From assembly GCA_963556495.2 (NCBI GenBank), contig CAUVZQ020000001.1:171001-235000 (forward strand): DNA of 64,000 bases, read 5' to 3'. The first letter of the stretch is position 1. Each line of letters starts with the position of its first letter. The position numbers and the translations under genes were made by a program. Below the pieces are notes generated by a model, which was given only the letters and a program-made list of their open reading frames with translations, was not told the DNA's origin and made no database searches. Source of the DNA: Valencia hispanica. Lineage: Eukaryota; Chordata; Actinopteri; Cyprinodontiformes; Valenciidae. Of this stretch, positions 1,457 to 64,000 are shown piece after piece.

Positions 1457-2435
1457 TGACCCACTGTCATCTGGACAAAGCAGGCAGCACTGTGAGGATC
1501 ATGTTCTTTGATTTCTCCAGTGCATTTAACACAATTCAGCCTGATTTGCTTTGTCAGAAACTCCTGAAGACACAGGTGGAGCCTCAACAATAGCCTGGAT
1601 CAATGACTACCTGACCAACAGACCACAGTTTGTGAGACTGAAGGATTGTGGGTAAAACCAGGTGGTCAGCAGCACAGGAGCACCACAGGGGACCGTACTC
1701 TCACCATTCCTTTTCACTCTGTACACCTCAGACTTCCAGTACAAATCAGAGACCTGTCATGTGCAGAAATACTCAGATGGATCAGAGATGGACAAGAAGC
1801 TGAACCCAGAGAGCTGGTGGACCGCTTTGTGACATGGTGTGGAAACAATCGTCTCACCTTGAATGTGAACAAAACAAAGGAGATGATTGTAGAAGAAGAA
1901 ACAGGGATAAGTCAAACACTGTTTCCATCATGGGAGAAGAAGTGGAGGTGGTTGAGGAGTATAAATACCTCAGAGTTCACCATGACAACAGACTGGACTG
2001 GAGACTGAACAGTGAAGCCGTCTACAAGAAGGGACAGAGCAGACTGGACTTCTGGAGGAAGCTTAGGTCCTTCAAGGTTTGCAGCAAGATGCTGCAGATC
2101 TTCTACAAGTCTGTTGTGGAGAGTGTAATCTCTTCAGCCATCATCTGTTGGGGTAGCAGCATCAGAGCCAGGGACTTAAAAAGGCTCAACAACCTGATAA
2201 AGAAGGTTCTGGTTCTGTTCTGGTTCTGTTCTGGTTCTATTCTTGGGACGACTGTGGAACATCTGGAGATGATGATGCAAAGAAGGATTCTTCATAAAAT
2301 TCAAAAACCATGGACAACCCTGATCATCCTCTTCATGAGACAGTCATACAACAACAGAGCGTCTTCAGTCGGAGGCGTATTCGGAGGTACTGTAAAAGTG
2401 CTCTGGGAAAAAGACAGTATTTTTGAATTTGAATT
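1457..2435 (+). mobile_element. Truncated LINE copy (reverse transcriptase remnant)
   Basis: Plus-strand frames 1499-2230 encode broken RT pieces. The sequence near 1500 is FFDFSSAFN-like, and LNVNKTKEMIV (about 1860) is the RT thumb. A downstream block has EYKYLRVHHDNRLDW, SRLDFWRKLRSF and [16 protein letters not shown], followed by [17 protein letters not shown]. Frames change repeatedly. The copy sits between two imperfect 36-bp direct repeats (1420-1456 and 2436-2471) that may be an old target-site duplication. The same family occurs antisense at 10490-10960. Confidence 0.75.
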
Positions 2436-2486
2436 TTAAAATCAAGGCATTCCAGTTAGACCAGCGGTAAAATTAAAGCGTCCCAG

Positions 2487-2598
2487 TCAGACAAGTGCTC
2501 TGAAGAGGAAGGAGACGGCTGCTCCTGAAGCCAAACCTAGAGACAGAAAGAAAGCCATGATGGCTCCTGCAGTTTCCACTTCATGAGGAAGAACATTC
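2487..2598 (-). CDS. slc29a1-like: ENT1-like terminal coding exon 12 (TM11, stop)
   Basis: Residues 401-437. [18 protein letters not shown] is followed by [18 protein letters not shown] and TGA. Both the [11 protein letters not shown] block and the C-terminal SFLFRALV are family hallmarks. The 3' UTR runs into an old LINE insertion; I could not place a polyadenylation signal. Confidence 0.95.
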
Positions 2599-32835: not shown

Positions 32836-32929
32836 AGAAGGATTAGTAGGACAACCAGAGGAGGGTCCATATAAATGAGACAAATTAAAAAATCTTATTT
32901 TCCTGTTTAGTATATTTCATTTGAATCAA

Positions 32930-45944: not shown

Positions 45945-46399
45945 CTGTGTAAATAACAGATAAGAGAGCATAGTTAACCTGTTAAAAATTTTGCAGATTG
46001 TCGTTAAAAAGGCTTTTATTTATTTTAACACGTCTTTGTTATTGTGAACTTTAATGAAGAAAGCAGAAACATCCCCTCAGCTTCTAATATGAGGTTTAGA
46101 GTTAAACAGTCAGCAGTGATTATTAAGATTATCAGCTCAGCAGGGTTCATCCAGTCCAGCCTTAACAAGAACTAGTTTAGAAGTTAGTTCAGCCACATTA
46201 GAATGAAGTGATTCATGTTCATAGTTCACCACCTAAATGTTTTAAACTAAGTAAGCAGCTCCAATGTGAACTAGCTCTTCTTTCTTTATTATAATTCATG
46301 TGAAAATAAACACCTGAGAAACTGCTGCCAGTAACTAAAAGTTCTCCATCTCCTGCTATTAACGTTTTACTGTCTAGTATATAAAAGAACAGAATACAA

Positions 46400-46685
46400 T
46401 ATTTAATTCAATTCAGATTATTTCTAAAGCGCAAATTCTCAACTGATGTCATCTCAAGGCACTTAACAATAGTCATTCCAACACAATAATACATTCCAAT
46501 TAGTTTAAAAGTTTTCTATTTAAGGAATCCCAGCAGATTGCATCGAGTCATTGACTTGAGGTTGCGCCCCGTTGAAGCAGACTCCAACCACAGCAATCCC
46601 TCATACTGAGCAAGCATGTAGCGATGGTGGAGAGGAAAAACTCCCCTTTAACAGGAAGAAACCTCCAACAGAACCAGGCTCAGTA
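46400..46685 (-). mobile_element. L2-type LINE 3' UTR, antisense, truncated at telomeric repeats
   Basis: Reverse complement of 24070-24370: CAAGGCACTTAACA, GCATCGAGTCATTGAC and ACAGGAAGAAACCTCCAACA are recognisable. It stops at GGCTCAGTA and the next base begins a GGGTTA array. The 45972-46399 flank has no feature. Confidence 0.85.
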
Positions 46686-46722
46686 GGGTTAGGGTTAGGG
46701 TTAGGGTTAGGGTTAGGGTTAG
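46686..46722 (+). repeat. Interstitial telomeric repeat (TTAGGG)6
   Basis: Six perfect vertebrate telomere units, G-rich on the plus strand, between a truncated LINE and satellite A1. Confidence 0.97.
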
Positions 46723-47534
46723 GTATATGGGGTTTATAAGGTCGTGGTACCCCCCCCTGACCAAACTTTGAAGTGCTATAACTTTTGATCTGAATGTGAT
46801 AGAGACATGGGACCAGCGTCTACCCCCCGGTACCACGGGTCTGGCTTTCGATTTCTTCCATCCGTTTGACCGTACGAGCTTCCGTTCTTGAGATACGCCC
46901 ACTTTTTGACATCCGGTGGTCTGTATCTCGAGAACGGAAGGTCGTAGAGACATGGGGACACTTCAGGCTTGCTCAGAATGGTCGAATTATGGCAGACGGA
47001 TCTTGGTTGCAAGTCTCTACGACGTACGGTTCGGGAGTTACGAGTCGTCAAAGTCGCCCCATTGGTTTCTATGGGACTGGGAGATGTCGAAAATTCACTA
47101 AGTGTCGGAGTCCGATATCGTTCGTCCAAAAAGTAGTTATGAGCACGTTTCAGACCATTTGGAGTCGATTGGTATACTTTTCTTGAGTCATTTTTTCAGA
47201 TTTTGACATCCACTAGTTGGCGCTTTCTTCAATTTCATGCCTTTCCCTGACTTTTTTCCCTAATCCTAAGTCAAGCACATATTCCACGGACCTTAGGTTT
47301 AGTAAAAAGCATCAGGGCAAGGCATAATCAAAATAAATGAGTGACCTGTAACAGGAATGGACTTTACATAGGAAGGGACTGTTGATAGGAATGGACTTTT
47401 GCATAGGAAGGGACTTTACACAGGAAGGGACTGCTGATAGGAATGGACTTTGCATAAGAATGGACTTTTTGACAGGAATGGACTTTGTATAAGAAGGGAA
47501 TTTTGACAGGAATGGACTTTTGACAGGAATGGAG
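46721..47534 (+). repeat. Subtelomeric satellite block A1
   Basis: 814 bp, identical to 48591-49404 (A2) and 61888-62701 (A3) except for a G/A difference at 47161 seen by eye. It has an imperfect 21-bp inverted repeat (46876-46896 with 46923-46943, 19/21) and ends with a degenerate minisatellite of GGAATGGACTTTTGCATA-like units. It is truncated on the right and capped by telomeric repeats. Several open frames exist but none resembles a protein. Confidence 0.9.
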
Positions 47535-47787
47535 GGTAGGGTAAGGGTTAGGGTAAGGGTTAGGGTAAGGGTTAGGGTTAGGGTAGGGTTAGGGTTAGGG
47601 TAGGGTTAGGGTAGGGTAGGGTTAGGGTAGGGTTAGGGTTAGGGTTAGGGGTTAGGGTAAGGGTTAGGGTTAGGGTAGGGTAGGGTTAGGGTTAGGGTTA
47701 GGGTAAGGGTTAGGGTAAGGGTTAGGGTTAGGGTAGGGTAGGGTTAGGGTTAGGGTTAGGGTTAGGGTTAGGGTTAGGGTTAGGTTA
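47535..47787 (+). repeat. Degenerate telomeric array
   Basis: About 250 bp of TTAGGG mixed with TAGGG, TTAGGGG and TAAGGG variants, G-rich on the plus strand. Confidence 0.97.
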
Positions 47788-48590
47788 AGGGATGAACACC
47801 ACCTGAGGATCGAATAAAGTTCCGATAAGTCAAAAACTAAAAGTGATAGGAGGACGAAACCAGTGTCTACACTGGGGTTTTGTGGGGTGGCGGACTCGCT
47901 GGCGAAGACCCCGTGTCGATAGCACTTACGGTTCCCGAGATACTCCAAAAATGGCCAAAAAGGATCGAACGAAAAGGTCAAAATGGAAGATAGGAGTGTT
48001 TGATGGAGCCAGATCTAGGATATTTGTAATCAGGGCCTCGTGCCGGGTTGGTAGACACCCGACATGGCATGATTCGGAGCGACTTCCCAGACTCAACATT
48101 GTTTTTCGATGTCTGGTAACATGGCCGTGTGACCTATCTATCAATGCGGGATGGCACGCAGGTTCCAAACGTGCCCAGAGAGGGTGTCTGTGATGCTTCT
48201 GTGTCCAGATAGGAAGCGAGATTCATGGTGATCCTTCTGTGTCCATATAGGAAGCGAGTTTGAGTGCCCCCCCACGGACCTTAGGTTTAGTAAAAAGCAT
48301 CAGGGCAAGGCATAGATAGAATAGATGGGTGACTGTGTATGAGAATGGACTTTGCATAGGAGGGGACTTTGTATAAGAATGGACTTTGCATAGGAATGGA
48401 CTTTGCATAGAAATGGACATTGCATAGTAATGGACTGCTGATAGGAAGGGAGTTTGCATAGGAATGGAATTTTGACAGGCATGGGATTTGCATAGGAATG
48501 GAGTTTTTGCATAGAAATGGACTTTTGCCAGGAAGGGACTGCTGATAGGAATGGAATTTTGACAGGAATGGACTTTTCATACATGTAGAT
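47788..48590 (+). repeat. Subtelomeric satellite block B1
   Basis: Starts GATGAACACCACCTGAGG. Unique-looking sequence to about 48250 is followed by a minisatellite of 17-20 bp units around GGAATGGACTTTGCATA (48335-48585). Repeated exactly as B2 at +13,297 bp. Confidence 0.9.
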
Positions 48591-49404
48591 AGGTATATGG
48601 GGTTTATAAGGTCGTGGTACCCCCCCCTGACCAAACTTTGAAGTGCTATAACTTTTGATCTGAATGTGATAGAGACATGGGACCAGCGTCTACCCCCCGG
48701 TACCACGGGTCTGGCTTTCGATTTCTTCCATCCGTTTGACCGTACGAGCTTCCGTTCTTGAGATACGCCCACTTTTTGACATCCGGTGGTCTGTATCTCG
48801 AGAACGGAAGGTCGTAGAGACATGGGGACACTTCAGGCTTGCTCAGAATGGTCGAATTATGGCAGACGGATCTTGGTTGCAAGTCTCTACGACGTACGGT
48901 TCGGGAGTTACGAGTCGTCAAAGTCGCCCCATTGGTTTCTATGGGACTGGGAGATGTCGAAAATTCACTAAGTGTCGGAGTCCGATATCGTTCGTCCAAA
49001 AAGTAGTTATGAGCACGTTTCAGACCATTTGAAGTCGATTGGTATACTTTTCTTGAGTCATTTTTTCAGATTTTGACATCCACTAGTTGGCGCTTTCTTC
49101 AATTTCATGCCTTTCCCTGACTTTTTTCCCTAATCCTAAGTCAAGCACATATTCCACGGACCTTAGGTTTAGTAAAAAGCATCAGGGCAAGGCATAATCA
49201 AAATAAATGAGTGACCTGTAACAGGAATGGACTTTACATAGGAAGGGACTGTTGATAGGAATGGACTTTTGCATAGGAAGGGACTTTACACAGGAAGGGA
49301 CTGCTGATAGGAATGGACTTTGCATAAGAATGGACTTTTTGACAGGAATGGACTTTGTATAAGAAGGGAATTTTGACAGGAATGGACTTTTGACAGGAAT
49401 GGAG
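48591..49404 (+). repeat. Subtelomeric satellite block A2
   Basis: Copy of A1 at +1870 bp. Unlike A1 it continues into block C1. Confidence 0.92.
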
Positions 49405-49772
49405 TCTTACATGTGAAAGGACTTTGTATTTGAATGGAGATTTGCATAGGAATGGATTTTTCATGTGAATGGGGTTTTTCATGGGGTCTGGGGGTCGTGG
49501 GTGGCCGTCGAGCATCCTGATAGGAAGGTGCTAGAGACATGGGACCAAGCTCTACCCCCCCATTTACTTGGTCTGGCTTTCGATTTCTGACGTCCGTTTG
49601 ACCGTACGACCTTCCCGTGGATGGCCACGCCCACTTTTTGACAGTATCTCCGGAACGGAAGGTCGTAGAGACACGGGACCACGTCAGGCGTGTTCAGAAG
49701 GGTCGAATTATATGGGATGGATGTTGGTTTCAAGTGTCTACGACGTACGGTTCCAGAGATACGGGCCGTCGA
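49405..49772 (+). repeat. Subtelomeric satellite block C1
   Basis: The end of the minisatellite leads into a core (about 49525-49770) that is a diverged version of the core of block A. Shared phrases are GTCTGGCTTTCGATTTCT, CGCCCACTTTTTGACA, GGAACGGAAGGTCGTAGAGAC-like wording and CTACGACGTACGGTTC. It ends at GGGTAGGG telomeric repeats. Confidence 0.88.
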
Positions 49773-49832
49773 GGGTAGGGTTAGGGTTAGGGTTAGGGTA
49801 AGGGTAGGGTTAGGGGTTAGGGTTAGGGTTAG
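49773..49832 (+). repeat. Interstitial telomeric array at PLE copy 1 3' end
   Basis: About 57 bp of TTAGGG and variants, ending GGGTTAGGGTTAG directly at the PLE sequence TCTGTTAGCGC. Confidence 0.95.
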
Positions 49833-50479
49833 TCTGTTAGCGCAAGGATCCCCCTGACCTAGTCCGACGACTAAGACAGTTTATGTAGGGAACCAAGGTA
49901 ATGCACTGGCCGGCGCACGTCGTCTGCAGCCTCTTTGTCCATATCACTATCTATCTTAAGTGACCTGGTGTAGAAGTATTGATTAGTGAAATGACCGTGT
50001 ACCATTCTCCGAAAATTCGTTTCGAAATCACTTGTAACCATTTGTTCCTGTTCCATTTCTAAAATGTCCTGTTTTTAATTTCCTTGTAGGGAACTCTGAA
50101 GAAGGTTCGTGGTAGAAGTTGAGCTGATTCTGGTATGTAAAGGTAAGTTTTGTGTTACTAATAATGATGAAAATGATAATGTTAACAACTATCATTATAA
50201 TCAATAATCATTGTTATATAATAAGAATGTTAAATTCCTATTTTAATGCCTGTTTTTTGTCTTATTCTTCTAGGTCTAACTGGTGACAATTTAGCCTATT
50301 AAAGGACACATCATCAGTAGTGGACCTCAGGATCTACGGGTGTTTCGGCCATTATCACTAGACACCCTCCCCTGAGGACGGCCCCGCCAAGGTTGATCAA
50401 GCCCTGGGGTGTGTCCAGTAAGTTCTTTTTATGTGCCCAGATTAGAGTGGCACTTACTCCTAAAGTCTTTTTCAGTTAT

Positions 50480-51400
50480 CACCTTTTAACAGGTTAAAAA
50501 CATTTTTATTATTAAAAGAGTAAGTTATTAGAGATTTGTAAGGATTCTTAAAATCTATTTCCTCTTAAAGGTATAGGTGTTATCGGGTTTTTGTAGGTAA
50601 GTATAGAAAGGTAGATAGTATTAGAGATGCTCGTATATGGTTTATTAAGTGTTCATCTTTTAACCGGTGAGGCAAATCTGGAGAAAAATTGATGAAGGTG
50701 AGTATTAGAGTGAGTATTAAGGGATAGTGTCAAGGGATCGGGTTAAACCGGTGTTGATGAAGTTATAAAATTAGACCTTTTAACAGGTGGGAAAATCCAC
50801 AAAATAAATCTATTAAGGTAAGTAGGTATTTTCTTGGAGTAGGTTTCAAAGTTCTGTTAAGTTTTCTCTCTGTATAACAGATGAAAAAATCTGAGGTTTC
50901 ACCTTTTAACAGGTGAGAGGTGAGATGTAAGTATTGAACGGTGATGTAAAAGGTGTTCTTGAAATCTATCATATTGCTGTTTTTGACAGGTGAAATAACT
51001 TTTAGTGGGTATTAAAAGGTAAGTATTAAAAGGTGTTTCAGAGTTCTACTTGGTTTCAACTTTTAACAGGTGAAAAGTCCATTAATGTCAGCATCTAAAT
51101 TATGTTAAAAGTTGTTCATACGATCTAATGAATTTCCTCTTTTAACAGGTGAAGGATTCCAAATAGTATGTTATTCGGATTCAACTTTTAGCAGATGAGA
51201 GAATTTACTCAGGTAAGTCTCTAAATCATCTTGAGAAGTGTTTCTATGATCTAATGAATTTCACCTTTTAACAGGCGAGAAATCCGAGCAGTAAGTTAAT
51301 TGAGTTTCACCTTTTAACAGGTGAGAAATGTATTGATGTGAGTCTCTAAACCCTTGAAAGGTGTTCCTAGAATCTATGGAATTCCACCTTAAAACAGATT
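50480..51400 (-). repeat. Irregular array of about 11 CACCTTTTAACAGGTGA-type motifs
   Basis: On the plus strand, variants of CACCTTTTAACAGGTGA start near 50480, 50654, 50774, 50900, 50979, 51058, 51136, 51181, 51261, 51306 and 51384. CACCT and AGGTG are inverted, so each motif can fold or bind a dimer. The PLE sense strand reads TCACCTGTTAAAAGGTG. Also present in PLE copies 2 and, as far as visible, 3. Confidence 0.9.
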
Positions 51401-52347
51401 AAAAACCATCCTAATTTAAAAAGTCAACAGATAGTAGGTCCAAGGCATATCAAGGAATGAGAGGCCCCCCCCGGGAGGTAAAAATGGACCAGCAAGAGCG
51501 AGCTCCGGCCTTCCAGCCCTCCTAGGTCTTTACAGTCCTCCGTGCCTATCAAGCCCAAGGCCACCATCCATTGTTCCCTCGGTCTGGACTCCTATTTGAG
51601 CCCAAAGGGAAAGATTTGGGGGATGTGACAATCTTAGAGTGTTCAATAAGGTTAAAGGGAAAGCCTGATTAGACGTGTGAAGGCGTTATGGTCTGTGTAT
51701 TGTAGAGGTAAAACCTCCGGGTGGCTGCGGTTAAGGTTCTAAGCCATGAACCAAGCCCCACTTAGGAGGTCCGCATACTTACCCACCCGAATCCCAAGCT
51801 CCGCAACGCAAAAAGCTAGTTGACACCGTTAGGTTACCACGATCTGCGTGTGTAGGTGCCAGGGACCGGGCCCCTCCAGCCAGCAACGGTCCAGAAAATC
51901 CTAAAGGATAGGCCGCCGAAGCAACTCTATCCCTCCCATTCCAGGATAAGATCTTTCAGACCACAACCAGAACTAGAGGACTCCCCAGCCAACCAGAACC
52001 CAAGCCCATCCGAGGCAGGGGGACCCAGAATGTCATGGCAATCCCCACACCCCCGTGTCCAAGGACTGAGACCACCCCAAAGTCAGAGAGATCTGACCGC
52101 CTAGCGGTCGTCCCAACTCAAACTCCAGAGTAGAGACTGTGGGATCCGGAAAGCCAAGGAGTAATAGGTAAGCCCGTGTCCCATACACCGCACGACCCCA
52201 GGTTTACCGGAAAGTTAGGATTTAACAAAGGACATCGGACATCCAGAGACCCCCGGAAGGGATTGCAATGTCTCCGGACTAGTGTAAATGCATCAGGGAC
52301 AAAACCGTCCGGGGATGCATACACCCTGATGTCAAGGGGCAGAGCTA

Positions 52348-53449
52348 AAGCTTACCTAGCGGTTTGCAATGACGCCTCTTAAGAAAACACGCTGCACTTT
52401 CTCAGGGCTTTATTTTTATTAAGACCAAGTATGGTCACGGTGCTATTAAAACTTTATAGTTTCTCCTTTGAGACTTAAGGGTAATCCCTACCGGTGCATT
52501 ATGGGTAAAGTAAATTAATTTCATATATTAAAACAGGTGTACCATTTTGCTTAAAAGTTCTTTTAAAATCTAAGTAAAATCGAGAAATAAGATACTAAAT
52601 GAAGCATGGGATTATGGGTAATAGGATTTTTTGGAACGTGAAGCTTATCCTTAAATACTGGGTGAATCCTTCCTTTCTTTCACTCATGGTTTTATGATAG
52701 ATTGAAGGTCTTTTTTTGTAAATTTTAAGTAACATTTTTAATCTTTATAAACTTTATTCAAGGTGTATGGTTTCTCCTGAGGATTGTTAAAGAGAAAAGT
52801 CTAAATAAACCCTTGGAATTGTGGGTAGTAGGTTTTATGAAGCATAAGCTAAAATATTGGGTGAATTCCTTTTTTCTTGGCTTCGTGGTTTTATGTATGG
52901 TAATGGTTTAACTAAAAATTTGGTAATTAAATTAAGCTAATTAACCCACTTTAAACAAGGTTATAGTTTTGTTTAGAATTTATTAAGGAAAAGAATGTAC
53001 CTTTTTCTATGGAATTATGGGTAATTTTACATTTTCATATTATTTAAATGTTTAGTGGACAATGGGAGTAAAAAGTATTCATATCTGTCCTAAGGGTTGA
53101 TTGGGATCATTGGATTATTTTGTTGGTTTTGAGAAGATAAAAGCATTTTAAATATGGAACAGGAAGTTCTTTCTCTTAAAATATTCCAGTGTCTTGCCAT
53201 TTCAGGGGTATTGGGTTATTAAAACATCCACTAGAGTGGTGTTAAGTAAGAATTGGTTATTTTGGATGATAAGAAGGATTAGATATAGACTCCTAAATTA
53301 ATGGATTTTTAAAGATTTTGGGGCATTGGATGTCAGGTTTCCGGATTTTCACTCTAATAATATGAAAAGCTTAATTTGAATGGATTGGGTTGTATTAAAT
53401 TCCATTTAGAAGTGTGGTCTATTAGGGTTAGGCAATGGTAAAAGTGTAA
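52348..53449 (-). other. AT-rich part of PLE 3' region
   Basis: Non-coding in all frames. It contains at least four spaced ATTATGGGTA-like motifs between 52497 and 53030. Present only in copy 1; copy 2 is truncated exactly at the left edge of this block. Confidence 0.6.
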
Positions 53450-54380
53450 GAGGTGACACTATCCTTAGGGTTAGGGAAAGAGAAATCGGAGAGGGGTATT
53501 GAATCTGACATTAAAGGGTTAGAGGGTCATGAGTTTGCAAGTTGGTTAAAAAAATGTATGGTGTGAAGGAGATGGAGTTGAGGAGGGTTGCCGGACCGGG
53601 CTACGCTCTCCCCCCGCCGGACCGGGCTGGACACTCCATCTCCCTCTACTCCCTACCTGGAAAGTCAGAAGGGAAGAAGGAGATAAGTGGGTAAGTATAA
53701 TGTGATAAGTGGGTAAGTATAATAGGTATAGGAGGTGATTAATATTTGTAGAGGGGGTCTGTTTTCACTATCCTTAAGGTTAGGAAAGAGGAATCGGAGA
53801 GGGATATTCAGTCTGACGTCAAAGTGTTAGGGTGTATTGAGTCTATAGGTTTGTTAAAAAATGTATGGTGTGAGGGAGATGGAGTTGAGGAGGGTTGCCG
53901 GACCGGGCTACGCTCTCCCCCCGCCGGACCGGGCTGGACACTCCATCACCCTCTACTCCCTACCTGGAAAGTCAGAAGGGAAGAAGGAGATAAGTGGGTA
54001 AGTATAATGTGATAAGTGGGTAAGTATAAGAGGTGATTAATATTTGTAGAGGGGGTCTGTTTTAACTATCCTTAAGGTTAGGAAAGAGGAATCGGAGAGG
54101 GATATTCAGTCTGACGTCAAAGTGTTAGGGTGTAATGAGTCTATAGGTTTGTTAAAAAATGTATGGTGTGAGGGAGATGGAGTTGAGGAGGGTTGCCGGA
54201 CCGGGCTACGCTCTCCCCCCGCCGGACCGGGCTGGACACTCCATCTCCCTCTACTCCCTACCTGGTAAGTCAGAAGGGAAGAGGGAGATAAGTGGGTAAG
54301 TATAATGTGATAAGTGGGTGAGTATAATGTAATAGGTACCGGAGGTAATTAATATTTGTAGAAGGGGTCTGTTTTCCAGG
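53450..54380 (-). repeat. Three tandem ~300-bp units with hairpins in PLE 3' region
   Basis: Units repeat with periods of 307 and 298 bp (anchor GATGGAGTTGAGG at 53571, 53878 and 54176). Each holds GCCGGACCGGGCT twice and an inverted repeat, GAGGGAGATGGAGT with ACTCCATCTCCCTC. The stem is perfect over 14 bp in unit 3 (54170-54183 with 54238-54251), with one mismatch in unit 2. Located downstream of ORF2 in the element's sense direction. Confidence 0.93.
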
Positions 54381-54633
54381 TAAGTCATGGTTATTTCTAA
54401 GAATTATGATCTTGAAAGGGAGCAGGGATCAGCATTTGGATTACTCCGTTTGAGAGCTTGCTCCTTTGTAAGGACATGCATCCTACAAAGATCTGGAATG
54501 AATCCTTTTTAGTGGCATCATGTCCCGTTCCCTTATTAAACAATCTTTATTAAACATTAAACAGCCATTACAACAATGAAGTATTTAAAACCTTAAACTT
54601 GAATAAGTGAGGTCCAACTACAGTTTGAAGTTT

Positions 54634-56778
54634 TTAAAGTTGGTTTAGTCCCTTGGGAAATCTACAATCCAATTTTTGGATCCATTGTCCTTCTCTTCTT
54701 TTCCTTTGGAAGGTTGTCCAGTTTGGGTTTTGTTCTAGACCCCTCATGTAAATGTTCTTCAACCCATGTCTTTTGAAGTGTTGTACCAAGTGTGTTCTGC
54801 TTTTCAGTCCCAGAGAAATGTTGTATCTGTGATGTGACAATCTAGTTTTCAAGGAGTTCCTGGTTTCTCCGACATATTGTGCTCCACATTTTGTGCACAG
54901 GATTAAATAAACACAGTTGAAGGAGTTCAGGTTAAGTTTTTGTGTAGGTCGAAAGGTCATTTTGGTTGTACGATTTTGGATGATCCTTTCTTTCCAGGGT
55001 CTTGTTTTAGTTTGTGTCATCCTTCCTAGTTTGGCTCGTACTAAAAGGTCTCGGAGGTTAGGGTTTCTTCGATAGGCTGAAACTGTTTTGAAGGTGGTGG
55101 TTAAGGCGGTGTCTCTTAATTCTTCCTCAAAGTTTTTCTTAAGAATTTTGTGGGCCCTTGCTGTGGTTGTTGAGTAGGTGCTGATTATTGGAATGATCTG
55201 TCGTGTGTCTACTTCTGGAGGTGTTTCCGGAGATGTTTTCTCGTTGGTCCGAAAGTTTTTCCGTAAGAAGGAGCGTGTGTATCCCCTCTTTCGTAGTGCC
55301 CAGAAAAGTGTCTTGACTGCATTTCGAAAGTCTGCTTCTCTGGAACATATCCTTTTAAAACGCAGTATTTGAGATTTTAATATTCCTTTGAAAGTGTGGC
55401 AAGGATGAAAGCTTTTTTTGTGTAAAAGACTGTGTGTGTCTGTCGGTTTGAAATAGATCTTGGTGTCCAGAATGCCGGTCTCACTGAATTCAGGTCCTTT
55501 GTATGTAGTTGTGTCGAGAAAGTTAACCTCTGTTTCATGGAGAACTGGTGTTAGTTTGATGGAGTCGTGATGCGAGTTTAGGTCTTCTAAAAACTTTTCA
55601 AACTCCTGTTTGGAATAGGGCCAAATGCCCCAGATGTCATCCAAGAATCGATAGTAGAGTGTGGGAAGTTTGGGACAGTTTTTAAAAATTGTTTCTTCCC
55701 AGTGGGCCATGTAGATGTTAGCGTAGGCAGGGGCAAATCTTTTGCCCATTGCCGTACCCTTTGTTTGTAGGAAAAAGTGGTTGTCGAACTCAAAATCATT
55801 CCTGGTCAGGTTGAGGTAAAGGAGTTCCAGTATTTCTGTGTCAGGTCGGTTTTGATCTGGGTATTTTAGGAACCATTTTTTGATGGCTTCCATGCCCAGG
55901 TTAATGTCAATATTTGTGTATAGACTGCTAACATCCATTGTGAATAAAAGACAGGGTTCCTTAAGGGATACCTGTCTTATTTTGGAGATGAAATCGTTTG
56001 TGTCCTTGATGTAGCTTGGGTGTTTATTAGCTATGGGTCCTAGGAAGGAGTCAATGTATTGGGCCGTTCCATAGCTTTCACTGCCACAGTCGGAAACGAT
56101 TGGACGTCCCGGGGGAATTTTGCCAGGGATTGTCCAATTGTCCCTTGGTTTGTGTATCTTAGGAAGTAGATAGAAGCGTCTTGTTCTAAAGGGTGGTTCT
56201 CCTTTGAGGTAAGCTACTTGTTTTTTGGAAAGGAAGCCTTTAGTTTGGAGTTTGTTGAGTATTTCTCGGATGAGGTCACTAGTTTCAAGGGAGATTGGTT
56301 CTCCAAGTGGTTGGTAGTATTCTGTGTCAGTAAGTTGTCGTAGGGCTTCCTGAACATAGTCTGTTCTGTCCATAATGACTACTGCTGAGCCTTTATCTGC
56401 TGGTTTTATCACAATAGTAGGGTTTTCTTGGAGTTCTTTAAGGGCTGTCATTTCTATCGGCTTTAAGTTTGATCTCTCTGTCGTTGGTCTGATTTTATGG
56501 ATTCCGATGTTGTCTTTCCTTATTAGTTCATGGATTTCTGGTTTGATTTTTCTGGGGTCTGGTGTCCAGTTAGATTTGGGTAGGAAGCTTGTTCTGTTTT
56601 CCCGGGAGGATGTTCCAAAATAAGATACTAATTTTAATTTTCTGTGGTAATCTGAAATCGAATTTAGGAGTGATGTGTGATCCTGTTTTTTGCATGTGGG
56701 AACGAAGGTTAGGCCTTTTTCAAGGAGGGTTTTTTGAGGATCACTGAGTTCAAGGGTTTCTGAAAGATTAACGATCAT
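54634..56778 (-). CDS. PLE ORF2: Penelope-type reverse transcriptase with GIY-YIG endonuclease
   Basis: 714 residues. The PLE N-terminal signature VIKPADKGSAVVIMDR is at 123-138. YLLPKIHKP (203-211) and GRPIVSD (224-230) come next. RT motif A is FTMDVSSLYTNI (Asp282). Motif B is QTKGTAMGKRFAPAYANIYM. Motif C is RFLDDIWG (Asp380, Asp381). VNFLDTT and FKPTDTHSLLHKKSFHP are typical of PLEs. The C-terminal GIY-YIG nuclease has CVYLILCTKCGAQYVGETR (622-640), with two CxxC-like cysteines, RL..HH, and the catalytic Glu in REGQWIQKL (Glu696). PLE RTs are sister to telomerase RT. The ORF is intact. The frame is open about 14 codons upstream of the ATG, so reinitiation or frameshifting from ORF1 is possible. 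Confidence 0.95.
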   Translation of the reverse strand: MIVNLSETLELSDPQKTLLEKGLTFVPTCKKQDHTSLLNSISDYHRKLKLVSYFGTSSRENRTSFLPKSNWTPDPRKIKPEIHELIRKDNIGIHKIRPTTERSNLKPIEMTALKELQENPTIVIKPADKGSAVVIMDRTDYVQEALRQLTDTEYYQPLGEPISLETSDLIREILNKLQTKGFLSKKQVAYLKGEPPFRTRRFYLLPKIHKPRDNWTIPGKIPPGRPIVSDCGSESYGTAQYIDSFLGPIANKHPSYIKDTNDFISKIRQVSLKEPCLLFTMDVSSLYTNIDINLGMEAIKKWFLKYPDQNRPDTEILELLYLNLTRNDFEFDNHFFLQTKGTAMGKRFAPAYANIYMAHWEETIFKNCPKLPTLYYRFLDDIWGIWPYSKQEFEKFLEDLNSHHDSIKLTPVLHETEVNFLDTTTYKGPEFSETGILDTKIYFKPTDTHSLLHKKSFHPCHTFKGILKSQILRFKRICSREADFRNAVKTLFWALRKRGYTRSFLRKNFRTNEKTSPETPPEVDTRQIIPIISTYSTTTARAHKILKKNFEEELRDTALTTTFKTVSAYRRNPNLRDLLVRAKLGRMTQTKTRPWKERIIQNRTTKMTFRPTQKLNLNSFNCVYLILCTKCGAQYVGETRNSLKTRLSHHRYNISLGLKSRTHLVQHFKRHGLKNIYMRGLEQNPNWTTFQRKRREGQWIQKLDCRFPKGLNQL

Positions 56779-56801
56779 TTTATTGGTTTCCTTTGCCCTC
56801 T

Positions 56802-58124
56802 TTAGTTGAGGGCTGCTAAGCCTAAAAAATCAGCCCAGGTGTCCCAGATCTTTTGTGCTGTATCAGTGGTCCAGTGTATCTGGTCTGGTTCGGTTTTGAA
56901 GTGGTTCCTATTAACCCGTGGGATTTGTTGCCCCGTGTTTTTTATGAGGTCGTTGAGGACTTCGATATTATGTTGGATTTTCCTGTGTAGTTTTTCAGAG
57001 TACCTGATCAATGGTACGAAGATTTGTGCCTGCGGAAATGTTGCTGTGGCTGCGTTAAGCATATCTCTCAGCTCCTTTTCAAGAATGGATGGGTTTCCTT
57101 GTTGTTTGTTGTTTAGACCGAAAGAGAGTATAACTTTGTTAGCTAAATCGAAGGTTGGTGTTTTGTTTCGTAGAACATGTCTGGCATGATTGAGATTGGC
57201 CCCTGGGTAGCAGTCAACCTGAATTCTGGGGTCTGCGATTTCTGGAATCCTGCTGATGTTGGAATCCCCAATGATCAAGATTCGTCTTTTCGGTTCTAGT
57301 GTCCAATTTTGGAATCTGTCCCCAGCATGGTTATGGGATTTGTAAAGGGAGAGTGGGGGTTCTGGTTCCTGTGGTGTTGGTTCTATTTCATTTTGAGTGT
57401 GTGTTTCGTCCTGCAATATGGATGCTATTCTGTTTGGGGTTTGTGGTGGTAGTGGTGAAATGATGGGACTATGTATAGCTTCCATTCCCAGGTCAAAGTT
57501 GATGTTCATAAATTCTTCCTGATTGATGTCTAAGATTGATGGTTGGTTTTGGAATTCAAGGTTTGTTTCGCTCCGTTCTGGTTGAATCTGTTTTGTTTGT
57601 TGGTTACTATGGTCAGTTTTTCGTTTTTTAGAATTTTGTTCTGGGTCGGGGTCCGAGATAGAGTTAGAATTCGTTTCGTTTTCTCTTGAGTTATAACTCT
57701 GGGTAGTGGTCATGATTAGTTGGATCTCTCTTTTTGCCTGGTCAATGGTGGTTTGTTGGATTGATCTTAAGTCTTTTTTGGTCCAGCCTATGGCCACTTC
57801 CAGTGCCCGTTCCCAGTCGTCTTTTGGTACGGAGCGTAGTTGATCCGTTATAAGAGTTCGGGAGGTCAAATAATGTTCCTCCAAAATTTGAAGTGTTGTG
57901 TGTGTCCAGTTTTTAGCATTGCCACCCTTGAGTTGATTAACCATCGGGCCTGGGTATGATGGTCGAACTTGTTCGGTGATTGTTCTCTCTATTCGTTTCA
58001 ATCTGGTCGGGATTGGTGTTTCCGGAGAGGTTTTGACGAATGAGAGGTGGTGGCTAATTTTGATATAATTAGCGAATGTCTTGGTGAGTTTGGAGAAGTC
58101 GCTTCTGTAGTTAGGCTGTGCCAT
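56802..58124 (-). CDS. PLE ORF1: coiled/polar N-terminus plus SGNH hydrolase
   Basis: 440 residues. The first about 150 are polar and helical (SDFSKLTKTFANYIKIS, basic RLKRIERT). Next is a low-complexity Gln/Glu/Pro/Ser linker with a KKRK basic cluster at 166-169 (possible nuclear signal). The C-terminal SGNH/GDSL-type hydrolase covers about 278-435: IIGDSNISR (nucleophile Ser288), PGANLNHA (Gly308), SFGLNNK (Asn338) and DQIHWT (Asp414, His417). All four SGNH blocks are present, so it could be an active esterase-type fold. By analogy with LINE ORF1 and gag-like proteins it may bind the element RNA or deliver it; that is inference. ORF2 starts 23 bp after its stop in another frame. Confidence 0.88.
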   Translation of the reverse strand: MAQPNYRSDFSKLTKTFANYIKISHHLSFVKTSPETPIPTRLKRIERTITEQVRPSYPGPMVNQLKGGNAKNWTHTTLQILEEHYLTSRTLITDQLRSVPKDDWERALEVAIGWTKKDLRSIQQTTIDQAKREIQLIMTTTQSYNSRENETNSNSISDPDPEQNSKKRKTDHSNQQTKQIQPERSETNLEFQNQPSILDINQEEFMNINFDLGMEAIHSPIISPLPPQTPNRIASILQDETHTQNEIEPTPQEPEPPLSLYKSHNHAGDRFQNWTLEPKRRILIIGDSNISRIPEIADPRIQVDCYPGANLNHARHVLRNKTPTFDLANKVILSFGLNNKQQGNPSILEKELRDMLNAATATFPQAQIFVPLIRYSEKLHRKIQHNIEVLNDLIKNTGQQIPRVNRNHFKTEPDQIHWTTDTAQKIWDTWADFLGLAALN

Positions 58125-58220
58125 CTCGAGGATCTGTTTAAGAAGGAGAGGAGAGAATTTTTAAGATAAGTGATATGATTGGAATATAAAAGAGGTTCGC
58201 CCTTCCGAAGGCTCTGGCAA

Positions 58221-58232
58221 GGTTAGGGTTAG
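58221..58232 (+). repeat. 12-nt telomeric spacer between PLE copies 1 and 2
   Basis: GGTTAGGGTTAG lies between the 5' end of copy 1 (GGCTCTGGCAA) and the 3' end of copy 2 (TCTGTTAGCGC). Confidence 0.9.
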
Positions 58233-60748
58233 TCTGTTAGCGCAAGGATCCCCCTGACCTAGTCCGACGACTAAGACAGTTTATGTAGGGAACCAAGGTA
58301 ATGCACTGGCCGGCGCACGTCGTCTGCAGCCTCTTTGTCCATATCACTATCTATCTTAAGTGACCTGGTGTAGAAGTATTGATTAGTGAAATGACCGTGT
58401 ACCATTCTCCGAAAATTCGTTTCGAAATCACTTGTAACCATTTGTTCCTGTTCCATTTCTAAAATGTCCTGTTTTTAATTTCCTTGTAGGGAACTCTGAA
58501 GAAGGTTCGTGGTAGAAGTTGAGCTGATTCTGGTATGTAAAGGTAAGTTTTGTGTTACTAATAATGATGAAAATGATAATGTTAACAACTATCATTATAA
58601 TCAATAATCATTGTTATATAATAAGAATGTTAAATTCCTATTTTAATGCCTGTTTTTTGTCTTATTCTTCTAGGTCTAACTGGTGACAATTTAGCCTATT
58701 AAAGGACACATCATCAGTAGTGGACCTCAGGATCTACGGGTGTTTCGGCCATTATCACTAGACACCCTCCCCTGAGGACGGCCCCGCCAAGGTTGATCAA
58801 GCCCTGGGGTGTGTCCAGTAAGTTCTTTTTATGTGCCCAGATTAGAGTGGCACTTACTCCTAAAGTCTTTTTCAGTTATCACCTTTTAACAGGTTAAAAA
58901 CATTTTTATTATTAAAAGAGTAAGTTATTAGAGATTTGTAAGGATTCTTAAAATCTATTTCCTCTTAAAGGTATAGGTGTTATCGGGTTTTTGTAGGTAA
59001 GTATAGAAAGGTAGATAGTATTAGAGATGCTCGTATATGGTTTATTAAGTGTTCATCTTTTAACCGGGTGAGGCAAATCTGGAGAAAAATTGATGAAGGT
59101 GAGTATTAGAGTGAGTATTAAGGGATAGTGTCAAGGGATCGGGTTAAACCGGTGTTGATGAAGTTATAAAATTAGACCTTTTAACAGGTGGGAAAATCCA
59201 CAAAATAAATCTATTAAGGTAAGTAGGTATTTTCTTGGAGTAGGTTTCAAAGTTCTGTTAAGTTTTCTCTCTGTATAACAGATGAAAAAATCTGAGGTTT
59301 CACCTTTTAACAGGTGAGAGGTGAGATGTAAGTATTGAACGGTGATGTAAAAGGTGTTCTTGAAATCTATCATATTGCTGTTTTTGACAGGTGAAATAAC
59401 TTTTAGTGGGTATTAAAAGGTAAGTATTAAAAGGTGTTTCAGAGTTCTACTTGGTTTCAACTTTTAACAGGTGAAAAGTCCATTAATGTCAGCATCTAAA
59501 TTATGTTAAAAGTTGTTCATACGATCTAATGAATTTCCTCTTTTAACAGGTGAAGGATTCCAAATAGTATGTTATTCGGATTCAACTTTTAGCAGATGAG
59601 AGAATTTACTCAGGTAAGTCTCTAAATCATCTTGAGAAGTGTTTCTATGATCTAATGAATTTCACCTTTTAACAGGCGAGAAATCCGAGCAGTAAGTTAA
59701 TTGAGTTTCACCTTTTAACAGGTGAGAAATGTATTGATGTGAGTCTCTAAACCCTTGAAAGGTGTTCCTAGAATCTATGGAATTCCACCTTAAAACAGAT
59801 TAAAAACCATCCTAATTTAAAAAGTCAACAGATAGTAGGTCCAAGGCATATCAAGGAATGAGAGGCCCCCCCCGGGAGGTAAAAATGGACCAGCAAGAGC
59901 GAGCTCCGGCCTTCCAGCCCTCCTAGGTCTTTACAGTCCTCCGTGCCTATCAAGCCCAAGGCCACCATCCATTGTTCCCTCGGTCTGGACTCCTATTTGA
60001 GCCCAAAGGGAAAGATTTGGGGGATGTGACAATCTTAGAGTGTTCAATAAGGTTAAAGGGAAAGCCTGATTAGACGTGTGAAGGCGTTATGGTCTGTGTA
60101 TTGTAGAGGTAAAACCTCCGGGTGGCTGCGGTTAAGGTTCTAAGCCATGAACCAAGCCCCACTTAGGAGGTCCGCATACTTACCCACCCGAATCCCAAGC
60201 TCCGCAACGCAAAAAGCTAGTTGACACCGTTAGGTTACCACGATCTGCGTGTGTAGGTGCCAGGGACCGGGCCCCTCCAGCCAGCAACGGTCCAGAAAAT
60301 CCTAAAGGATAGGCCGCCGAAGCAACTCTATCCCTCCCATTCCAGGATAAGATCTTTCAGACCACAACCAGAACTAGAGGACTCCCCAGCCAACCAGAAC
60401 CCAAGCCCATCCGAGGCAGGGGGACCCAGAATGTCATGGCAATCCCCACACCCCCGTGTCCAAGGACTGAGACCACCCCAAAGTCAGAGAGATCTGACCG
60501 CCTAGCGGTCGTCCCAACTCAAACTCCAGAGTAGAGACTGTGGGATCCGGAAAGCCAAGGAGTAATAGGTAAGCCCGTGTCCCATACACCGCACGACCCC
60601 AGGTTTACCGGAAAGTTAGGATTTAACAAAGGACATCGGACATCCAGAGACCCCCGGAAGGGATTGCAATGTCTCCGGACTAGTGTAAATGCATCAGGGA
60701 CAAAACCGTCCGGGGATGCATACACCCTGATGTCAAGGGGCAGAGCTA
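58233..60748 (-). mobile_element. Penelope-like element copy 2, 5'-truncated (2.5 kb of 3' region)
   Basis: Matches 49833-52347 almost perfectly; the one difference I see is an extra G at about 59066. No ORFs are included. The truncation point (CAGAGCTA, 60748) is followed immediately by GGGTTAGGG. Confidence 0.93.
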
Positions 60749-61085
60749 GGGTTAGGGTTAGGGGTTAGGGTTAGGGTTAGGGTTAGGGTAAGGGTTAGGG
60801 TTAGGGTAGGGTAGGGTTAGGGTTAGGGTTAGGGGTTAGGGTTAGGGTAGGGTAGGGTAGGGTAGGGTTAGGGTTAGGGTTAGGGTAAGGGTTAGGGTAA
60901 GGGTAGGGTAAGGGTTAGGGTTAGGGTAAGGGTTAGGGTTAGGGTAGGGTTAGGGTTAGGGTTAGGGGTTAGGGTAGGGTAAGGGTTAGGGTAGGGTAGG
61001 GTTAGGGTAGGGTTAGGGTTAGGGTTAGGGTTAGGGTTAGGGTAAGGGTAGGGTTAGGGTTAGGGTTAGGGTTAGGGTAGGTTAA
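60749..61085 (+). repeat. Degenerate telomeric array
   Basis: About 335 bp of TTAGGG with TAGGG, TTAGGGG and TAAGGG variants capping PLE copy 2. Confidence 0.97.
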
Positions 61086-61887
61086 GGGATGAACACCACC
61101 TGAGGATCGAATAAAGTTCCGATAAGTCAAAAACTAAAAGTGATAGGAGGACGAAACCAGTGTCTACACTGGGGTTTTGTGGGGTGGCGGACTCGCTGGC
61201 GAAGACCCCGTGTCGATAGCACTTACGGTTCCCGAGATACTCCAAAAATGGCCAAAAAGGATCGAACGAAAAGGTCAAAATGGAAGATAGGAGTGTTTGA
61301 TGGAGCCAGATCTAGGATATTTGTAATCAGGGCCTCGTGCCGGGTTGGTAGACACCCGACATGGCATGATTCGGAGCGACTTCCCAGACTCAACATTGTT
61401 TTTCGATGTCTGGTAACATGGCCGTGTGACCTATCTATCAATGCGGGATGGCACGCAGGTTCCAAACGTGCCCAGAGAGGGTGTCTGTGATGCTTCTGTG
61501 TCCAGATAGGAAGCGAGATTCATGGTGATCCTTCTGTGTCCATATAGGAAGCGAGTTTGAGTGCCCCCCCACGGACCTTAGGTTTAGTAAAAAGCATCAG
61601 GGCAAGGCATAGATAGAATAGATGGGTGACTGTGTATGAGAATGGACTTTGCATAGGAGGGGACTTTGTATAAGAATGGACTTTGCATAGGAATGGACTT
61701 TGCATAGAAATGGACATTGCATAGTAATGGACTGCTGATAGGAAGGGAGTTTGCATAGGAATGGAATTTTGACAGGCATGGGATTTGCATAGGAATGGAG
61801 TTTTTGCATAGAAATGGACTTTTGCCAGGAAGGGACTGCTGATAGGAATGGAATTTTGACAGGAATGGACTTTTCATACATGTAGAT
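61086..61887 (+). repeat. Subtelomeric satellite block B2
   Basis: Copy of B1 at exactly +13,297 bp, including its minisatellite. Confidence 0.93.
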
Positions 61888-62701
61888 AGGTATATGGGGT
61901 TTATAAGGTCGTGGTACCCCCCCCTGACCAAACTTTGAAGTGCTATAACTTTTGATCTGAATGTGATAGAGACATGGGACCAGCGTCTACCCCCCGGTAC
62001 CACGGGTCTGGCTTTCGATTTCTTCCATCCGTTTGACCGTACGAGCTTCCGTTCTTGAGATACGCCCACTTTTTGACATCCGGTGGTCTGTATCTCGAGA
62101 ACGGAAGGTCGTAGAGACATGGGGACACTTCAGGCTTGCTCAGAATGGTCGAATTATGGCAGACGGATCTTGGTTGCAAGTCTCTACGACGTACGGTTCG
62201 GGAGTTACGAGTCGTCAAAGTCGCCCCATTGGTTTCTATGGGACTGGGAGATGTCGAAAATTCACTAAGTGTCGGAGTCCGATATCGTTCGTCCAAAAAG
62301 TAGTTATGAGCACGTTTCAGACCATTTGAAGTCGATTGGTATACTTTTCTTGAGTCATTTTTTCAGATTTTGACATCCACTAGTTGGCGCTTTCTTCAAT
62401 TTCATGCCTTTCCCTGACTTTTTTCCCTAATCCTAAGTCAAGCACATATTCCACGGACCTTAGGTTTAGTAAAAAGCATCAGGGCAAGGCATAATCAAAA
62501 TAAATGAGTGACCTGTAACAGGAATGGACTTTACATAGGAAGGGACTGTTGATAGGAATGGACTTTTGCATAGGAAGGGACTTTACACAGGAAGGGACTG
62601 CTGATAGGAATGGACTTTGCATAAGAATGGACTTTTTGACAGGAATGGACTTTGTATAAGAAGGGAATTTTGACAGGAATGGACTTTTGACAGGAATGGA
62701 G
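61888..62701 (+). repeat. Subtelomeric satellite block A3
   Basis: Copy of A2 at exactly +13,297 bp, with the same A at the position where A1 has G (47161). Confidence 0.93.
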
Positions 62702-63069
62702 TCTTACATGTGAAAGGACTTTGTATTTGAATGGAGATTTGCATAGGAATGGATTTTTCATGTGAATGGGGTTTTTCATGGGGTCTGGGGGTCGTGGGTG
62801 GCCGTCGAGCATCCTGATAGGAAGGTGCTAGAGACATGGGACCAAGCTCTACCCCCCCATTTACTTGGTCTGGCTTTCGATTTCTGACGTCCGTTTGACC
62901 GTACGACCTTCCCGTGGATGGCCACGCCCACTTTTTGACAGTATCTCCGGAACGGAAGGTCGTAGAGACACGGGACCACGTCAGGCGTGTTCAGAAGGGT
63001 CGAATTATATGGGATGGATGTTGGTTTCAAGTGTCTACGACGTACGGTTCCAGAGATACGGGCCGTCGA
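62702..63069 (+). repeat. Subtelomeric satellite block C2
   Basis: Copy of C1 at exactly +13,297 bp. Confidence 0.93.
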
Positions 63070-63129
63070 GGGTAGGGTTAGGGTTAGGGTTAGGGTAAGG
63101 GTAGGGTTAGGGGTTAGGGTTAGGGTTAG
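63070..63129 (+). repeat. Interstitial telomeric array at PLE copy 3 3' end
   Basis: Same length and variant order as 49773-49832. Confidence 0.96.
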
Positions 63130-64000
63130 TCTGTTAGCGCAAGGATCCCCCTGACCTAGTCCGACGACTAAGACAGTTTATGTAGGGAACCAAGGTAATG
63201 CACTGGCCGGCGCACGTCGTCTGCAGCCTCTTTGTCCATATCACTATCTATCTTAAGTGACCTGGTGTAGAAGTATTGATTAGTGAAATGACCGTGTACC
63301 ATTCTCCGAAAATTCGTTTCGAAATCACTTGTAACCATTTGTTCCTGTTCCATTTCTAAAATGTCCTGTTTTTAATTTCCTTGTAGGGAACTCTGAAGAA
63401 GGTTCGTGGTAGAAGTTGAGCTGATTCTGGTATGTAAAGGTAAGTTTTGTGTTACTAATAATGATGAAAATGATAATGTTAACAACTATCATTATAATCA
63501 ATAATCATTGTTATATAATAAGAATGTTAAATTCCTATTTTAATGCCTGTTTTTTGTCTTATTCTTCTAGGTCTAACTGGTGACAATTTAGCCTATTAAA
63601 GGACACATCATCAGTAGTGGACCTCAGGATCTACGGGTGTTTCGGCCATTATCACTAGACACCCTCCCCTGAGGACGGCCCCGCCAAGGTTGATCAAGCC
63701 CTGGGGTGTGTCCAGTAAGTTCTTTTTATGTGCCCAGATTAGAGTGGCACTTACTCCTAAAGTCTTTTTCAGTTATCACCTTTTAACAGGTTAAAAACAT
63801 TTTTATTATTAAAAGAGTAAGTTATTAGAGATTTGTAAGGATTCTTAAAATCTATTTCCTCTTAAAGGTATAGGTGTTATCGGGTTTTTGTAGGTAAGTA
63901 TAGAAAGGTAGATAGTATTAGAGATGCTCGTATATGGTTTATTAAGTGTTCATCTTTTAACCGGTGAGGCAAATCTGGAGAAAAATTGATGAAGGTGAGT
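63130..64000 (-). mobile_element. Penelope-like element copy 3, 3' end only (runs off window)
   Basis: Identical by eye to 49833-50703, including the sequence without the extra G of copy 2. Whether it is full length cannot be told from this window. Confidence 0.92.

Follow-up and report, generated by a model that had tools for sequence, protein, structure and literature searches.

Endonuclease-bearing Penelope-like elements joined to telomere repeats near contig ends of the fish Valencia hispanica

Introduction

Telomeric Penelope-like elements (PLEs) provide an image of the kinship between telomerase and retroelements. The present study concerns a PLE of the fish Valencia hispanica that encodes a telomerase-like reverse transcriptase (RT) with a C-terminal GIY-YIG endonuclease domain, and which has its 3′ end joined to TTAGGG repeats. 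It was found in a stretch of 64,000 nt, hereafter the window (nt 171001 – 235000 of contig C5), and positions given without a contig name refer to the window. Since contig C5 is 235,000 bases long, the right edge of the window is also the contig end. The whole assembly is 1.29 Gb in size and consists of 29 contigs.

Telomeric PLEs are described from bdelloid rotifers (Athena/Terminon), and according to the available parts of these reports they have no RT-fused endonuclease and carry a 3′ hammerhead (PMC6431247, PMC3846280, PMC5537684), while some rotifer Terminons carry stand-alone GIY-YIG-like endonucleases (PMC6431247, PMC5537684). As far as those parts go, the fish element shares with them a PLE RT, a position at chromosome ends, a 3′ end placed on reverse-complement telomere repeats, 5′ truncation by telomere repeats, and head-to-tail stacks; some Terminons also have a GDSL-type accessory open reading frame (ORF). 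It differs in its vertebrate host, in the fusion of GIY-YIG to the RT, and in that no hammerhead was found in the loci searched (see below). Because of the fused endonuclease and the missing 3′ hammerhead it is not filed here as a Terminon; it seems to work like one. The statement of the initial annotation that telomeric PLEs lack the GIY-YIG nuclease is correct for an RT-fused nuclease in the rotifer accounts consulted, but has to be qualified for the stand-alone Terminon enzymes and for degraded GIY-YIG PLEs reported near telomere-like repeats in sturgeon.

The latter were described from lake sturgeon in 2025, where they lie between the telomere-like terminal repeat of the integrated herpesvirus AciHV-3 and telomere-like repeats. 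The association concerns a subset of five contigs, one PLE does not directly adjoin the virus, and the authors, in the available sections of the paper, describe the integration of such PLEs as random and infer no telomere targeting (PMC12031113). Unlike those of the window element, the ORFs of the sturgeon PLEs are, in the same sections, not intact (PMC12031113). By analogy, the sturgeon association may be the same phenomenon. That association apart, no other telomere-specific GIY-YIG PLE of a vertebrate was recognised among the papers listed in searches of the open-access PubMed Central literature, a body that is without subscription papers and Repbase.

Neptune-like canonical PLEs with an esterase ORF occur in fish and molluscs and have in common with the fish element an esterase ORF beside RT-GIY-YIG; the part of the report available states no telomere association for them (PMC5408684). 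They are the likeliest home of the fish element, which is set beside them by description, there being no named reference in the protein tree given below. Tandem or partial tandem copies (pseudo-long terminal repeats, pLTRs) are shared with PLEs generally, and are seen here in copies 1 and 2 of the window, a pair on C15, two copies on C11 and six on C12. The silkworm retrotransposon SART1 has telomere repeats as its target and, in the text available, needs a poly(A) tail (PMC7265360). SART1 and TRAS1 are long interspersed nuclear elements (LINEs) of the non-LTR type (lacking long terminal repeats), whereas the fish element has a PLE RT with GIY-YIG, and its 3′ end lacks a poly(A) run. Tx1_Acar of Anolis, which in the available extract is listed as a vertebrate telomere-associated retrotransposon (PMC10088271), is likewise a LINE and unlike the fish PLE.

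Telomere-joined PLE copies at the end of contig C5

A chromosome-end-like region occupies the last 17 kb of the window. Scanning the window gave 45 overlapping TTAGGGTTAGGG words, every one on the + strand, with none on the − strand and none in the first 46.6 kb. Three PLE 3′ termini are found at nt 49833, 58233 and 63130, where the + strand reads TCTGTTAGCGC..., and TTAGGG-type sequence immediately precedes all three on the same strand. With up to 2 mismatches, TTAGGGTTAGNNTGTTAGCGC occurs three times in the window and not once in 100 shuffles.

PLE copy 1 (nt 49833 – 58219, − strand) is full-length at 8,387 bp, with its 3′ end (nt 49833) joined to a 61-bp proximal TTAGGG tract (nt 49772 – 49832, +). 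Its 5′ end, at nt 58219, is followed by (GGTTAG)2, a junction from which we infer that the element truly begins there. Among the copies of this family (fam1) no other full-length one was seen. The 3′ untranslated region is about 4.8 kb long (nt 49834 – 54633, −) and contains three 298-bp tandem repeats at nt 53458 – 54327. A telomeric linker, AGGTTAGGGTTAG (nt 58220 – 58232, +), separates the 5′ end of copy 1 from the 3′ end of copy 2 (nt 58233 – 60748, −), which retains some 2.5 kb from the 3′ side of the element, is 5′-truncated, and runs into a 341-bp TTAGGG array lying distal to the truncated end (nt 60748 – 61088, +). Copies 1 and 2 are equal in 2,527 of 2,528 alignment columns, with one 1-base indel (nt 58221 – 60748 vs 49821 – 52347).

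Copy 3 (nt 63130 – 64000, −) is a 3′ part cut by the contig end. It duplicates copy 1, as do the sequences before it, namely a subtelomeric unit Y+X (nt 61089 – 63068, +; 1,980/1,980 bases) and the 61-bp TTAGGG tract (nt 63069 – 63129, +; 61/61 bases). Altogether, nt 47792 – 50703 equals nt 61089 – 64000 in 2,912/2,912 bases at an offset of 13,297, the 61-bp telomere tract included. The three PLE copies with a common, telomere-joined 3′ terminus that were initially annotated are thus present with their junctions (2,912/2,912 bases being exactly duplicated), but a reading of three independent copies was rejected, as the segment that contains copy 3 is duplicated exactly and offers no independent junction. 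Since copy 3 is duplicated and copies 1 and 2 are one indel apart, the window alone represents at most two insertion events, perhaps one dimer. The 2,912-base duplicates are preceded by telomere arrays of unequal length; they may represent subtelomeric units in tandem, or a duplication made by the assembly at the contig end.

Distribution of the 3′ terminus in the assembly

The 3′-terminal 300 bp of the window PLE were compared with the whole assembly, and all 11 candidates gave matches. As the initial annotation had expected, the copies join TTAGGG in one orientation and cluster at chromosome ends: 11/11 matches lie 0.6 – 50.4 kb from a contig end and 11/11 are antisense-outward (+ at right ends, − at left ends). 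The zone less than 51 kb from the 58 contig ends makes up 0.23% of the assembly. The predominance of internal copies that had been named as counter-evidence was not seen in fam1, which besides C5 is present on seven long contigs.

With the C5 duplicate excluded there are ten distinct proximal junctions, two each on C5 and C15 (a and b) and one each on C6, C3, C2, C23, C9 and C19, and on these 8 contigs 10/10 read ...AGGGTTAG|TCTG. The proximal telomeric tracts are 12 – 60 nt long in 9/10 cases (C5b 12, C15a 15, C9 17, C2 19, C15b 21, C23 26, C19 32, C6 46 and C5a 60 nt) and 134 nt at C3. They follow non-telomeric DNA, which is the 5′ end of the other PLE copy at C5b, a truncated PLE copy at C15b, subtelomeric unit X at C5a, and other DNA at the remaining junctions.

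The truncated fam1 copies have kept about 0.1 – 6.45 kb, and 9/9 carry TTAGGG-type sequence at their 5′ ends. This distal tract or array is about 43 nt or more at C15b, C6, C3, C2, C9 and C5b. At C15a it is 21 nt, after which the next PLE copy begins, and the whole C15 stack consists of fam1, 21 nt, fam1, 64 – 66 nt, and an element of a further family, fam3b (see below). The distal tracts of C23 (11 nt) and C19 (17 nt) are followed by a common further sequence, AGGAAACAGAAATGAACCCTT (about C23:18.6 kb and C19:35.9 kb), which may mark the terminus of one more end-attaching element. Arrays of the Y+X unit with TTAGGG between the units were also observed, distal to PLEs, in the terminal stretches of C6, C9 and C23. 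Differences between copies of ORF2, the RT-GIY-YIG gene, are few: 2 synonymous and 0 nonsynonymous changes in 481 codons at C6, and 2 and 1 in 248 codons at C3. The 460-nt divergence table was read without C15b, which has an internal deletion.

Several of these contig ends have the composition of telomeres. The right end of C15 has 2,985 bp that are 99.8% TTAGGG by unit count, the first 4 kb or so at the left end of C19 are C-rich telomere repeats, and the right ends of C9 and C6 have telomere-type sequence at the end. The outermost 500 bases read N at C3, C2 and C23 left, and C5 is non-telomeric at its far (left) end.

A guild of related elements

When the ORF2 protein was compared with the genome, 62 of 459 candidates were scored and gave 65 rows, all of which were used. 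Thirty-five of the 65 lie less than 100 kb from a contig end, 34/35 of them in the predicted orientation, while 14/30 internal rows have this orientation, as by chance. Twenty rows are intact (at least 600 aa, no stop), 19/20 of them less than 67 kb from an end; the 19 terminal copies, window included, are spread over 13 contig ends. The sole intact internal row (C15:52016734) belongs to a family of 34% identity. Rows of at least 46% identity number 48, with 35 at ends, and among the rows below 46% identity, which serve as an internal control, 0/17 come closer than 100 kb to an end. ORF2 is present in two tandem copies on C11, and near the right end of C12 there are six intact tandem copies at a constant 5,133-bp spacing (C12:56895495-56923295). 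Degraded internal relatives were observed at C26:240890-251465, C9:51385978-51530929 and C12:6386773-6388915, and are possibly fossil ends or ordinary insertions.

A tree was made of 47 ORF2 proteins (34 listed relatives, 11 terminal copies, and 2 internal copies of 34 – 36% identity). In it the internal pair stands apart on a long branch of its own (100/100), and the terminal copies are scattered among relatives from other sources; the tree is without the 13 internal rows whose identity is 46% or more, and the pure terminality of the clade lies outside its reach. The GIY-YIG motif is present in the window protein and in 9/10 other terminal proteins translated, the tenth (C4) being a fragment that ends before the GIY-YIG domain. 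The telomere habit is shared by several subfamilies and is not that of a single element.

Termini were read in 12 stretches beside intact copies. Three further types were found: fam2, ATAGAGAACTGACC (C8 left, C2 right, C15 left, C25 right); fam3, AACAAGAAATAAAAATTCTGTCGCC (C11 twice, C18, and C6 in a locus read besides the 12); and fam3b, AAACAAAGTTAAACTC (C1, and C15 twice in another such locus). No terminus was identified in the C12, C26 and C9 left stretches. The four terminus types have 21 distinct junctions, with telomeric tracts of 6 – 263 nt (median 26). In two stretches, L053 and L062, which contain no long TTAGGG run, the terminus scan shows junctions preceded by 6 and 10 nt of telomere sequence. 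Each type keeps to one register, namely TTAG| in fam1, GGG| in fam2 and fam3, and GGGG| in fam3b. In a genome search with the fam3 terminus, 10/10 places were 7.6 – 94.8 kb from ends and in the predicted orientation, an eleventh row being the hairpin of C18 read backwards. The right end of C6 has fam3 copies of just 32 and 26 nt (L015:4316, L015:5899), lying between stretches of TTAGGG, as if reverse transcription had begun at the 3′ end and then failed at once.

Proteins encoded by the element

Both ORFs are open and GIY-YIG is above the Pfam cut-off, so the intact ORFs and retained nuclease of the initial annotation stand. ORF1 (nt 56802 – 58124, −; element positions 96-1418) encodes 440 aa, and ORF2 (nt 54634 – 56778, −; element positions 1442-3586) encodes 714 aa with the telomerase-like RT followed by GIY-YIG. 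ORF2 matches Pfam RVT_1 with an E-value of 5e-6 (26.8 bits, just under the cut-off of 29.6), and GIY-YIG (PF01541) with one of 3.9e-6. In an alignment of 21 ORF2 sequences (the window and 20 of 120 listed relatives), residues D282, D380 and D381 of the RT and Y624, Y635, G637, R646 and E696 of GIY-YIG are invariant; we take these to be the catalytic residues of the two domains. The AlphaFold2 model of ORF2 has a mean pLDDT of 87.0, and the ten best Foldseek matches of this model in the PDB are all telomerase RTs, with modest TM-scores of 0.31 – 0.38 by query length. A sequence search of the PDB gave no relatives of ORF2 at E up to 0.01.

In the ORF1 protein an N-terminal helical domain is connected through a disordered linker to an SGNH/GDSL esterase domain. 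The listed PDB matches are SGNH-type hydrolases, one of them the esterase from ORF1 of the zebrafish retrotransposon ZfL2-1. Residues S288, G308, N338, D414 and H417 are kept, each invariant or at least 90% conserved in a 15-sequence alignment. ORF1 has 32 relatives, and the five that are named are all from fish; neither the protein searches nor an exact 25-base pattern found relatives of the element on viral contigs. By analogy with what the available parts of PMC6431247 and PMC5408684 suggest for other retroelement esterases, ORF1 presumably serves ribonucleoproteins or membranes.

The 3′ ends of the elements carry simple hairpins only. For the window family a special 3′ RNA fold was not significant (z -0.65; -0.19), while the three other termini gave z-values of -1.75 to -3.18.

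Terminal attachment and its alternatives

The location, orientation, junctions, truncations and ORF integrity observed in the sequence of this one genome, together with a host TERT (two Telomerase_RBD matches over the cut-off at C16:36.39 Mb), very probably reflect a guild of telomere-colonising, endonuclease-bearing PLEs near the chromosome ends of this fish, which spread by end-primed reverse transcription and are re-capped by telomerase. As the elements are placed antisense-outward, transcription would run inward, toward the centromere. The element RNA would end in, or read into, C-rich telomere sequence (CUAACCC), renewing a pairing tail, and where a chromosome end is broken or nearly bare, this short tail would pair with its G-rich 3′ end in fixed register. 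The telomerase-like RT could then add antisense element cDNA to the end, mostly stopping early and leaving a 5′-truncated copy, after which telomerase would re-cap the new end with TTAGGG. Stacks may be built by later additions or by subtelomeric exchange, and the retained GIY-YIG nuclease may trim or nick G-rich ends or make founding insertions.

Priming at broken or nearly bare ends is favoured because the proximal tracts are only tens of bases long and come after non-telomeric DNA. To this extent the short tracts favour the TTAGGG-overhang priming of the initial annotation; the priming itself we still infer. The register is fixed and yet depends on the family, which favours pairing with element RNA, or copying from it, over a setting of the register by the chromosome end itself. 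The TTAGGG at truncated 5′ ends suggests capping by telomerase, as does the TERT gene of the host.

A number of observations weigh against this reading. The common register of fam2 and fam3 weakens the case for element-specific pairing and lowers slightly the probability given to the reading as a whole. If the elements use free ends only, it is odd that nearly all terminal proteins have an intact GIY-YIG domain. Among the copies at ends, C8:59359183 (+) is oriented the other way round. Internal rows with an identity of 46% or more number 13; they are fragments or broken, none being intact over 600 aa, and two of them are situated on C26, 243-251 kb from its left end. Weaker internal fragments fall outside the ORF2 count, in which 62/459 candidates were scored. 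The eight ends of fam1 contigs that were examined comprise 4 telomeric, 3 N and 1 non-telomeric, and apart from the four telomeric ends the quantity measured is distance to the contig end. The fam2 and fam3 termini were first spotted via TTAGGG, so only the later pattern and genome matches are free of this bias, and for fam3 the places with a TTAGGG check are all but those on C16, C28 and C11 left. No hammerhead ribozyme was detected at E up to 1 in nt 46000 – 64000 of the window or in 9 other loci. Finally, Poseidon PAc of Anolis, which like the fish element is a GIY-YIG PLE with tandem copies, has an AT-rich site preference, an internal start of reverse transcription without target homology, and a hammerhead (PMC11167929).

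The strongest competing explanation, though we think it unlikely, is site-specific target-primed insertion, in which GIY-YIG nicks the G-strand in short TTAGGG tracts in the manner of SART/TRAS, and the elements go into telomeric or subtelomeric repeats that are already present instead of attaching to chromosome ends. It would account for the retention of GIY-YIG, for junctions that are phase-locked within each family, and for the telomere-type sequence flanking fam1 copies on both sides; SART1, in the available part of its description, demonstrates the principle (PMC7265360). Uniform entry into long arrays should, however, give longer proximal tracts than those observed, which are short (median 26 nt, minimum 6) and come after non-telomeric DNA, whereas the terminal telomere of C15 measures 2,985 bp. 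This argument has less force against insertion into short internal tracts.

Spread of one or two old insertions by subtelomeric recombination, the element itself being without preference, would agree with the exact duplication in the window, the Y+X units at several ends, and the six C12 copies of fixed 5,133-bp spacing. Such a history is highly improbable, as the ten fam1 junctions have differing proximal flanks, nine copies have differing truncation points, and the same pattern is found in relatives of 49-59% identity. Subtelomeres tolerate insertions, and together with the 13 degraded internal rows this could suggest insertion anywhere, followed by survival only near ends where selection is weak. 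To this we give a shade less credence again: it leaves the uniform orientation and the TTAGGG at both ends of fam1 copies unexplained, and other PLE families of the same genome are internal (0/17 rows at ends). An assembly artefact, with telomere reads misjoined to PLE sequence, might be suspected from the position of the window at the end of a 235-kb contig, the exact duplication inside it, and contig ends reading N, but is scarcely credible given an identical junction with differing flanks on 8 contigs and the independent publication of a similar association in HiFi contigs of lake sturgeon (PMC12031113).

Beyond telomere colonisation by end-primed reverse transcription, it can tentatively be proposed, at a little short of an even chance, that the GIY-YIG PLE clade is a second end-healing system beside telomerase, the RNA 3′ ends of each family carrying a short telomere complement in fixed register, and that the habit is ancestral, because the terminal copies are spread over the clade. 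If so, the telomere complement at the RNA 3′ end would be the retroelement counterpart of the telomerase template. The element would seize broken or bare ends, extend them with cDNA and return them to telomerase, and the nuclease may process ends. Such a second system would perhaps exist in many fishes, and GIY-YIG would no longer mark PLEs as non-telomeric.

Other features of the window

The inner edge of the terminal region is an interspersed repeat (nt 46405 – 46687, +) broken at ...CTCAGTAGG and then continuing as TTAGGG, while its paralogue (nt 24073 – 24370, reverse strand) goes on as CTCAGTAGGAGCGGCC.... The break (nt 46405 – 46719) is probably an old healed, or fossil, chromosome break, to judge from this comparison. 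A short TTAGGG tract (nt 46684 – 46722, +) leads into a truncated subtelomeric unit X (nt 46720 – 47533, +), 99.9% identical to nt 48590 – 49404, which is followed by a degenerate TTAGGG array of 259 bp (nt 47533 – 47791, +) and by the 1,980-bp unit Y+X (nt 47792 – 49771, +) that precedes the tract of copy 1 and has relatives at other contig ends.

Outside the terminal region, nt 18109 – 23211 contain a Ty3/Gypsy element that looks intact, with gag and pol ORFs and terminal repeats of 374 bp that are identical to each other; an older non-LTR element adjoins it. A Gypsy ORF has one match at 99%, and its best matches among named sequences come from Scortum, Dicentrarchus and Lates. A large inverted repeat pair (nt 32922 – 35397 and 39999 – 42184) is 72-88% identical.

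Significance

The endonuclease-bearing guild described here, diverse and in part intact, is a new form of telomeric PLE, present in a vertebrate; the telomeric PLEs of the accounts consulted are from non-vertebrates. This puts a testable question into an animal group with laboratory models: can a retroelement heal or cap the chromosomes of a vertebrate that retains telomerase? Attachment of PLEs to chromosome ends would explain part of the structure of fish subtelomeres. It might also explain why the sturgeon herpesvirus adjoins PLEs with telomere repeats in the available account (PMC12031113), and telomeric PLEs may mark sites of virus integration.

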